From: Halicephalobus mephisto
Taxonomy: Eukaryota; Nematoda; Chromadorea; Rhabditida; Panagrolaimidae
Direction: 5' to 3'
Assembly: GCA_009193035.1 (NCBI GenBank)
Contig: SWDT01000011.1
Location: forward strand, 248,001 to 312,000
DNA: 64,000 nucleotides
Positions 50,607-53,387 of the stretch are shown here, piece by piece. The notes beneath the pieces were generated by a model. It was not told the DNA's origin, did no database searches, and saw nothing but the letters and a program-made list of their open reading frames with translations. Each line of letters begins with the position of its first letter. Within the stretch, counting starts at the first letter, position 1. The translations under genes were made by a program, and so were the position numbers.

Positions 50607-53387
50607 ATGCCCCCGACTTTAGCTCGGAACCGACCGAGAAGAATGATGACGGAGGAGGACCAAAGAGTCAGTGTGTCGATTCTGCAGTATCTGGGACCTG
50701 CAAACAGCGGATCTTGTGGATACTGTAAGAGAGGCAGAAGAAAGACCCCAGGAGCCCCCGACAATGAAGAACCGTCGTTCAGTTTAGGTAAGGTGTTAAA
50801 AATTAGGGCTCGGCTGGCTTCAGAATTTGGAAATTAAATTTCTCAACAAGTATGATAATTGAAGAAAAATGATATATGATTTTTGGAATTCTTGAATTCC
50901 TGCGCAAAAAGGAATTTTATAAAAGTGGAAAAATTGGTAAACTTGTCCAACTCGGTTCGCTCTTTTTTAATTTTTAGGATTCTTAGTTTTTTCAAGAAAA
51001 TTCTATAAAAAACTTTAATTTTAACAAATATATAGTTTTCGAATTCTCACGTAAAAGTAGATTTTATAAAAGTGGAAAAATTGGTAAACTTGTCCAACTC
51101 GGTTCGCTCTTTTTTAATTTTTAGGATTCTTAGTTTTTTCAAGAAAATTCTATAAAAAACTTTAATTTTAACAACAATATAGTTTTCGAATTCTCACGTA
51201 AAAGTAGATTTTATAAAAATGATAAATTTTTTAAGTTTTTGTGTTGAAATTTTTCCACTTTTTACCTGATTTTTGGAAATTCGTCTCAAGACAATTTTGT
51301 AAAATTTTTTATTTAAAATTTTTACAATAGTATGGTTTTAGGGGTCATTGCTCATTTCCTCACTTGTGAGGACTTCAATCAAATGCTTGACATCGGATGG
51401 AATAGGTAACTTTAGTTTTCACGTACTGACGCCAGCCGATGCCCGGAATTTTGGGATTTTAAAAATTTAAATTTTTTTGCAGGTATTTGGGCTCATGATT
51501 TAACAGTGAATGATTATAATGATTTGTGTGATAGAGGCTGGCGTCGGTAGTGAAATTTTAAAATTTAAATGTTTTTATATATGAATTTTTTTAGATCAGG
51601 AAAATACTTGTACAAACCGATCATGGATAAAACGTGTTGTCCACAGTATACTATTAGATTGGATGTGAACAAATTCAAACTGTCGAGGACGCAGAAACGG
51701 GTCTTGAGGAATGCTCATAATTACCTTAAATACGGTAATATGCCGACAAGGAAGATCCACGATCCATGCTTGATGGACGACAGCAAAGATGTGCCTCCTC
51801 CGATGCCGATGGAGAAAAAGAAACAAGAACATGTAGAAAAATCGAAACAAGAAAAAGGAGTGAAAAAGAAGGAAATTCGGAAACAGAGAGCGATAGAAAA
51901 GAAATTAAAACGGGGAGAAAATATTTTCGAATATCAAAGGAAAAGACGGGAAAAAGAAGCTTCAAGACAAAGAACGATTGAATCGTATCTGGAAGATTAC
52001 ACAGAAGGAGAATGGGCCCACAAACTGGAGATAAGGACGATAGAAAAAGGAACACCGGAATTTGAGAGATCGTTTGAAGAAAGTTATGCATTGTTTTCGA
52101 AATATCAAAGAATGGTCCATGAGGATTTAAATACGTCGAGAAAAGGATACGAAGGATTTCTAATGGCTACACCATTGATTACCCCAACAGGAGATCCCAA
52201 TGTTCCGGCACTAGGATCGTATCATCAGCAGTATGTTCTTGATGGAAAAATAATCGCTGTTGGGGTGGTGGATATTCTTCCGAGATGTCTTTCGTCGAAA
52301 TATTTTTATTATGATCCTGATTATGCATTTTTGACGATGGGAACGTATTCTGCATTGAGGTTTGAATTTTTAAAGAAATTTACATGGAAATAGTTTTTAG
52401 ATTTTTATATAAAATAATCTTTTAAATTTTATATAAAAAGAAATTTTAAAATTTTGTATGAAAATTATTTTTTTAAATTTTATATAGAAATATTTAAAAA
52501 AATAGTTTTATATAAAAATTACTCTTTAATTTTATATAAAAGTAAATTTTTAAAACTTTATATAAAAGTTATTTTTTTTTTAATTTTATATAAAAGTTAT
52601 TTTTTTTAAATTTCACATAAAAGTTATTTTTTTTAAATTTTATATAAAAGTTATTTTTTTTTAATTTTATATAAAAATTACTTTTTTAATTTTATATAAG
52701 TTATTTTTTTAGGGAAATTGCATATACTCGGCGATTATCGAAAACTAGACCATCTCTTCATTATTATTACATGGGTTATTATCTTCAAGAATGTCCGAAA
52801 ATGAGGTACAAAGGGAAATTTCATCCAAGTGATTTGTTATGTGACAAGACTTTCAAATGGGTAAGTTTTTAATTTTAAAAATGTGTAATTTTTGAGAAAT
52901 TGAAGTTTTTTAAAATTAAATTTAGAAAAAAATTTCAAAAGAAAATTATTTTTTTGAAATTTTTGAATTATTACGTGAAAATAAAAAAATAAATTTATTT
53001 AGCAATGTAATTTAACTGTTTTTTATTTTTTTTTAAAAATTCTGAAAAGTTAAGAAATTAAATTTTGAACGTTTTTAGATGCCTCTGGAAGATGCGGTGA
53101 AAAAAATTACGGAAAATGAATCGAAATTTACAGTTTTTTATCCTGATGATCCGAGACCCCCATCACCGAGTTACCATTCTATTCGATGCATGTTTCGGGA
53201 TAGAGTAATGATGTATCCTAAAGTGAGAGAAGAAATGGTTGAACCGAAACTTTCGGAATTTGACACTAGGATGCAAGAATTGTGTTATTATATGGACAAA
53301 GTGATCTCATCTGTGGTGATATTTTTTCCCTCAATGGCTGCTTACCTAGTCGGAGCTGATGAAGAAGATGAAGTATCAGAAGAGTGA
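50607..53387 (+). CDS. ate-1: arginyl-tRNA--protein transferase ATE1
   Basis: Transfers Arg from Arg-tRNA to N-terminal acidic residues (N-degron pathway). Exons: 50607-50787; then either 51342-51405 (exon A) or 51483-51546 (exon B); then 51595-52359, 52713-52860 and 53079-53387. Either choice keeps frame and gives 488 residues. Conserved features are C37GYC40 and C96C97, the cysteines that bind metal or an Fe-S cluster in this family, then PQYTIRL, KVLR-like helices, a Lys-rich linker, YHQQYVLDGKIIAVGVVDIL, YYDPDYAFLTMGTYSALREI and YYYMGYYLQECPKMRYKG. Exon A or B supplies residues 61-82, between the two cysteine pairs. Exon B gives the canonical WAHDLTVNDY...GWRR; exon A is diverged. Intron 1 has a 147-bp tandem repeat and pairing elements. 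Confidence 0.95.
50806..50823 (+). promoter_or_regulatory. putative RNA selector site 1 (intron 1)
   Basis: GGGCTCGGCTGGCTTCAG is complementary to 51426-51444 over 17 base pairs, with one mismatch and one bulged base. It lies 19 nt after the exon 1 donor, upstream of exon A, and is GC-rich in an AT-rich intron. Confidence 0.7.
50914..51225. repeat. 147-bp near-perfect tandem repeat in ATE1 intron 1
   Basis: 'attttataaaagtggaaaaa' starts at 50914 and 51061, and a truncated third copy starts at 51208. The units are almost identical ('acttgtccaactcggttcgc'), so the duplication is recent. It lies in the loop that would be closed by the 50806/51444 helix. Confidence 0.85.
51342..51405 (+). other. 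ATE1 alternative exon A
   Basis: A 64-nt exon with acceptor GTTTTAG and donor AG|GTAAC, phases identical to exon B. It encodes G-VIAHFLTCEDFNQMLDIGWN-R. Eleven of 22 residues are identical to exon B, with the A-H, L-T, D, N, D and G-W positions kept. Including both exons would break the frame (128 nt), so the choice must be exclusive. Confidence 0.85.
51424..51444 (+). promoter_or_regulatory. putative RNA docking site between exons A and B
   Basis: The core CTGACGCCAGCCGATGCCC (51426-51444) can pair with 50806-50823. Bases 51424-51437 can instead pair with 51536-51549. The two pairings use the same bases and cannot coexist. Confidence 0.7.
51483..51546 (+). other. ATE1 alternative exon B (canonical)
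   Basis: A 64-nt exon with acceptor TTTTTTGCAG and donor CG|GTAGTG. It encodes the family-typical IWAHDLTVNDYNDLCDRGWR. Its last ten nucleotides and its donor are part of a predicted helix with the intron element at 51424-51437. Confidence 0.9.
51536..51549 (+). promoter_or_regulatory. putative RNA selector site 2 covering the exon B donor
   Basis: GGCTGGCGTCGGTA spans the last 11 bases of exon B and the first three of its intron. It pairs with 51424-51437 over 14 base pairs, with a single G-U. Pairing would hide the exon B 5' splice site. Confidence 0.7.

Follow-up and report, generated by a model that had tools for sequence, protein, structure and literature searches.

The elements R1, R3 and R4 at the mutually exclusive exons 7a and 7b of human ATE1 are reportedly the subject of an original study by Kalinina et al. 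2021. In the accessible parts of two publications, R1 and R4 are described as competing for R3 (PMC11802352, PMC8052449), and the pairing energies, as far as the excerpt of one of them gives them, are −33.2 and −35.9 kcal/mol (PMC8052449). The same excerpt lists R-scape E-values of 0.65 and 0.59 for two human ATE1 pairings (PMC8052449), so that even a pairing listed there as validated can be without a covariation signal. Dscam-type genes, in the portions of the literature available, also show competing pairings, one of which forms at a time while the unchosen exons are looped out; in these genes a docking site flanks the exon cluster and selectors lie beside each exon (PMC6071210, PMC11802352). 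A tandem duplicated exon event is listed for C. elegans ate-1 in a source whose accessible part gives neither its position nor an RNA structure (PMC9741552), and the gene is named among those with altered splicing events in C. elegans sftb-1 mutants in the excerpt of another (PMC6830814). Our literature search, carried out mostly at title level, returned no title on competing RNA structures at nematode ate-1. Such structures in another nematode gene may be described by Yue et al. 2017, a paper cited in connection with helminth mrp-1.

We analysed a window of 64,000 nucleotides of Halicephalobus mephisto DNA, taken from a genome of 59.9 Mb, and followed up an ATE1 gene within it (Table 1). The ATE1 introns checked start with GT and end with AG, and Pfam ATE_N and ATE_C are matched by both isoforms, the A form and the B form. 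Among the matches listed, the protein is closest to nematode proteins, with 90% identity to P0001, 77% to P0002 of Panagrolaimus sp. JU765, and 92% over 48% of the length to P0003 of Halicephalobus sp. NKZ332. Between the apparent stop of an upstream gene and the start codon of ATE1 there are 112 nt (50494-50607), and an ORF with a signal-peptide-like start is found 347 nt past the ATE1 stop (53387-53735); with this spacing on both sides, ATE1 could be part of an operon.

Table 1. Features of the ATE1 locus, in positions of the window.
Feature	Position	Strand	Evidence or remark
ATE1 gene, start to stop codon	50607..53387	+	splice joins, 488-aa frame, Pfam ATE_N and ATE_C, nematode homologues
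Exon 1, metal-finger cysteines C37 and C40	50607..50787	+	
Exon 1 donor	50788..50793	+	predicted U1 pairing −9.9, best of three donors
D1, upstream partner of R (helix 1)	50806..50823	+	pairing, shuffles
Exon A, encoding the nematode-type segment GVIAHFLTCEDFNQMLDIGWNR, the codon at either end shared with neighbours	51342..51405	+	
R, shared element between exons A and B	51417..51444	+	51424-51444 in helix 1, 51417-51437 in helix 2
Exon B, ordinary ATE1 segment GIWAHDLTVNDYNDLCDRGWRR	51483..51546	+	
D2, exon B end and donor, downstream partner of R (helix 2)	51536..51555	+	pairing, codon test, shuffles
Exon 3, metal-finger cysteines C96 and C97	51595..52359	+	
Remaining exons, after exon 3	52713-52860, 53079-53387	+	

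An earlier note on this DNA had described exons A and B as both 64 nt long, in the same phases and identical at 11 of the 22 encoded residues, and this is borne out by the sequence: each has an AG acceptor and a GT donor, and the two are homologous neighbouring exons of equal phase, as mutually exclusive tandem exons are. Its statement that inclusion of both exons shifts the frame also holds and extends to the skipping of both, as messages with A alone or B alone keep a reading frame of 488 aa and messages with both or with neither run through a frameshift into an early stop. The frame demands exactly one exon per productive message, and A-type and B-type proteins of relatives lie on contigs of intron-free size: the A-type P0001, of 479 residues, on a contig of 1710 bases and the B-type P0005, of 501 residues, on a contig of 1773 bases. 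The introns total 1314 nt in the A message of the window's ATE1, and because both contigs are too short for an intron-bearing gene, we infer that P0001 and P0005 probably represent spliced RNA of relatives. Mutually exclusive use of A and B is, as judged from the sequence, very probable. Were exon A a decayed or unused copy and exon B alone spliced, the lack of the conserved GWRR ending in exon A would be accounted for; however, the A segment recurs unchanged in P0001 and P0003 and in close form in P0004, P0006 and P0007, the same fold is predicted with the same confidence for both isoforms, and P0001 looks like spliced RNA, all of which makes a disused exon A very improbable.

Both kinds of segment are spread through nematodes. 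Our homologue set held 203 distinct matches listed, of many more, and 194 of them carry the motif that follows the segment. The B-type ending is present in 170 of these 194 listed homologues and lacking in 24, which on reading fell into 20 A-type rows and four faulty models or fragments (P0032, P0040, P0070, P0077). All 16 A-type homologues with an organism name are nematodes (the others are P0001, P0004, P0011 and P0047), and the A-type genera are Caenorhabditis, Diploscapter, Haemonchus, Nippostrongylus, Pristionchus, Mesorhabditis, Steinernema, Aphelenchoides, Bursaphelenchus, Dracunculus, Panagrellus and Halicephalobus. The segment encoded by exon B is the one usual for ATE1, the human protein included; in matches P0078-P0203 (n=126, mostly non-nematode) the motif is present in 123, every one of which has the RR ending. 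Phenylalanine occupies position 12 in 18 of the 19 A segments of a chosen set and tyrosine does so in all 17 of its B segments; in this set the A rows were that of the window, five from fused models and 13 of the 20 A-type segments, and the B rows were picked from many, the RR ending itself being the criterion for B. Of the 19 A segments, 16 score nearer to other A segments than to B segments. The A-type rows left out of it were P0003, P0008, P0029, P0031, P0043, P0044 and P0048; by eye, P0029, P0031, P0043 and P0044 are without the A-type phenylalanine at position 12, and these proteins, which come from Aphelenchoides besseyi, Bursaphelenchus okinawaensis and Mesorhabditis spiculigera, have a strongly diverged A-type segment.

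In P0019, P0052, P0054, P0059, P0062, P0063 and P0072, an A-like segment precedes a B-type one in the same protein model, and such fused public nematode models are probably annotation errors caused by the exclusive exons. The two segment types fit one old duplication in nematodes, 22 residues being too few for a firm tree. Contig searches for the ATE1 DNA of relatives returned no nematode record among the matches listed (80 of 184, with bacterial titles). Taken with the listing of C. elegans ate-1, in the accessible part of its source (PMC9741552), the A-type and B-type segments across nematodes indicate an exon pair that is nematode-wide and known in kind, and for the exons the earlier idea that nothing had been described at this position fails. 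Known already, then, are the nematode A/B exon pair, in kind, and the human ATE1 switch, at another exon. As a comparator we looked at coq-2: the UbiA-family gene L091, taken by eye for coq-2, is open through much of its domain, with no exon pair seen, unlike C. elegans coq-2, for which exclusive exons have been reported.

Between exons A and B lies the element R, which can pair with either of two partners. Helix 1 joins 50806-50823 to 51424-51444 by 17 bp with one mismatch and one bulge, as described before, and its core has an energy of −32.5 kcal/mol. For helix 2, the earlier note was right on the pairing and on a single G-U pair but short in its count of 14 bp: 51536-51555 pairs with 51417-51437 over 20 bp with one 1-nt bulge (−36.0 kcal/mol), the six extra pairs being intronic on both sides, and the exon B donor is covered from −11 to +9. 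The bases of R from 51426 to 51437 take part in both helices (except 51430, unpaired in helix 1), and owing to this overlap the two are mutually exclusive. R can pair with D1 or with the exon B end and never with both, as had been claimed, and it is thus one element complementary to at least two others that cannot be bound at once, as in docking/selector control. D1 and R had also been called GC-rich islands, and their GC contents are 0.72 and 0.67 versus 0.25 and 0.36 for their introns. The earlier observation of an ATE1 exon pair with competing helices is confirmed, and it is stronger than it was described.

To the energies of the duplex program, which allows long internal loops and therefore returns low values at many places, we added a local helix score with strict penalties. 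Helix 1 scores 54.0 and helix 2 scores 43.5, and when both introns were dinucleotide-shuffled and the exon B region was kept, none of 5000 shuffles attained the former score and one of 5000 the latter. At 1054 placements of the same geometry in the window, which is rich in repeats, both strands included, the helix 1 score was reached at 8 and the helix 2 score at 17, one of the 17 overlapping the ATE1 site; five placements came within 80% of both scores, one of them overlapping the ATE1 site and three falling in DNA with a GC content of 5-13%. By the looser duplex energy, none of 2000 shuffles reached the observed −50.5 or −44.3, and 1140 of 2000 had both energies at or below −25 on overlapping sites. 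The same measure does not discriminate among real placements at core energies, the only ones at which these were counted: of 2108, 522 reach −35.3 and 127 reach −36.0.

R occurs in exact form once in the genome, with three further matches at 3 mismatches. Large parts of intron 1 match dispersed repeats in the genome (at least 50 other places), and the intron holds two adjacent 147-nt direct copies that are 92% alike (50889-51182). The idea that R or D1 derives from a dispersed repeat was considered and rejected, both lying outside the listed repeat matches of intron 1 and R being unique at exact match. D1 might have arisen by duplication from the exon B end, after the model in the accessible part of PMC6071210, but since both pair with R and so must resemble each other, their likeness does not discriminate. 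No known structured RNA was matched at the Rfam gathering score within the window.

The exon side of helix 2 also encodes protein. With R fixed, 6 of 288 synonymous exon B endings equal or exceed the actual one in pairing; GGC, CGT and CG are retained in all six, which differ only in the first arginine codon, outside helix 2. The codons of the exon B end are the best-pairing synonymous choice given R (p 0.0006, weighted by the codon usage of this gene), and of the 40 arginine codons in the B form a single one is CGT, the one at the exon B end, while two of its 23 glycine codons are GGC. The match of the synonymous positions to R means that protein constraint alone does not explain helix 2, and R may have adapted to the exon B codons rather than the codons to R. 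The complementarity might still be largely a protein-driven coincidence, in which the exon B end encodes the conserved RGWRR and R happens to match. The conservation of RGWRR at the B segment end does fix the exon side of helix 2 in part, but helix 1, which no shuffle equalled, is wholly intronic, nine base pairs of helix 2 (51547-51555) lie beyond the exon B end, and the synonymous positions match as well, and we consider a coincidence of this kind improbable.

The two helices are predicted to be nearly equal in stability. In five contexts at 37 °C, the ensemble energy of the helix 1 state minus that of the helix 2 state is −3.9, +2.9, +0.7, −2.2 and −2.7 kcal/mol, and each state is 24.0 to 30.6 kcal/mol better than one with R unpaired. 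Thermodynamic folding, which the earlier note had suggested as a check, favours helix 1 over nearly the stretch it had named (0.99 in 50780-51620) but helix 2 over a longer one (0.81 in 50607-51800); the winning helix depends on the stretch folded. When folding extends up to 51535, with D2 not yet made, helix 1 stands at 0.997. Near-equal stability, although the energies are rough, is what a two-state switch would need. A reading of the pair as a thermosensor was dropped, helix 2 being favoured throughout in the one context used (50700-51700), by 2.9 kcal/mol at 37 °C and by 3.0 to 4.3 kcal/mol at the other temperatures between 15 and 41 °C.

These features suggest a switch in which R would set exon choice by pairing either with D1, which adjoins the exon 1 donor, or with D2, at the end of exon B and its donor. 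The earlier note had helix 1 looping out exon A and bringing the exon 1 donor near the exon B acceptor, and the predicted span between these sites does fall from 695 nt to 56 nt, by which exon B would be used. It had helix 2 looping out exon B and burying its donor, and in the predicted structure most of the exon is looped out and the donor is unpaired at 0.00, compared with 0.43 with helix 1 (context 50700-51700); exon A would then be used, since the span from its donor to the exon 3 acceptor would shrink from 189 nt to about 50 nt. In this way each helix would give its favoured exon a single compact intron. Transcription reaches D1 and R ahead of D2, which would make helix 1, and hence exon B, the default, and the share of exon A would rise with a factor, or a slowing of transcription, in favour of helix 2. 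Messages with both exons or neither would run into an early stop, and we assume that decay removes them. With helix 1 formed, the exon 1 donor is predicted to be unpaired at 0.14, through a weak A+U extension (context 50700-51700), and since this pairing would hinder the use of exon B, U1 must be assumed to bind before helix 1 forms.

On the sequence and the predicted folds, we consider it likely, at about two in three, that A and B are spliced exclusively and that the competing helices control the choice, R pairing with D1 or with the exon B end and donor. The exons may instead be exclusive but chosen between by RNA-binding proteins and splice-site strength, with decay removing the double and skipped products and the helices incidental or modulating. 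Regulation by a protein is known from the exclusive exons of C. elegans unc-32, which UNC-75 regulates according to the accessible part of PMC3585155; the exon B donor has a weaker predicted pairing with U1 (−5.4) than those of exon 1 (−9.9) and exon A (−6.4); and frame logic alone would remove double products. Choice by proteins, however, leaves unexplained both the two strong helices on one unique GC-rich element and the best-pairing codons of exon B, and we regard it as rather unlikely.

The earlier note had likened the locus to Dscam-type control, and the exclusive exons and the competing helices of that comparison stand. Unlike in Dscam-type genes, however, R sits between the two exons, and the end of a coding exon together with its donor serves as one of its partners; the closer parallel is human ATE1 7a/7b. 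Human and nematode share the gene, the exclusive exons and one element contested by two partners (R3 there, R with D1 or D2 here), and, in the accessible excerpts, the human elements are said to overlap splice sites and pair with energies like those of helices 1 and 2. The exons differ: the nematode pair is not homologous to 7a/7b and lies in the N-terminal metal finger, the 30-kb R2-R5 pairing is a feature of the human gene, and, according to the same excerpts, the human pairing was shown by mutation whereas the nematode pairing is predicted. Two beetle isoforms, P0190 and P0191, differ around residues 257-311, presumably the 7a/7b region, and at one residue near 179, not at the A/B segment. 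C. elegans ate-1 is the same gene, and its protein P0076 has an A-like segment at the same place. We propose tentatively, and at slightly less than even odds, that one and the same RNA switch of three parts, two of them competing for the third, arose twice and independently at unrelated ATE1 exon pairs, 7a/7b in mammals and A/B in nematodes, the nematode arm lying in the synonymous codons and the donor of the exon that is silenced. If this is true, one enzyme gene drew an RNA switch at two different exons, a striking convergence.

The swapped segment was correctly placed by the earlier note between C37/C40 and C96/C97, and it is the beta-alpha-beta piece of the ATE1 metal finger. Use of A in place of B would change this piece and turn the conserved GWRR into GWNR. 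AlphaFold gives both isoforms the same fold, with a mean pLDDT of 81.5 each and values of 95 and 96 for residues 61-70 and 71-80 in both, and the model of the A isoform matches human ATE1 8tzv with a TM of 0.91 by target length. The metal-finger site of yeast ATE1 has been reported to bind zinc (PMC10115844) or an oxygen-sensitive iron-sulfur cluster (PMC9884297), and the exon swap may alter metal binding or substrate choice. Should the proposed control prove true, the exclusive splicing of a conserved nematode exon pair would be directed by RNA-structure switches, and the switch could tune the arginylation targets or the oxygen response of ATE1.
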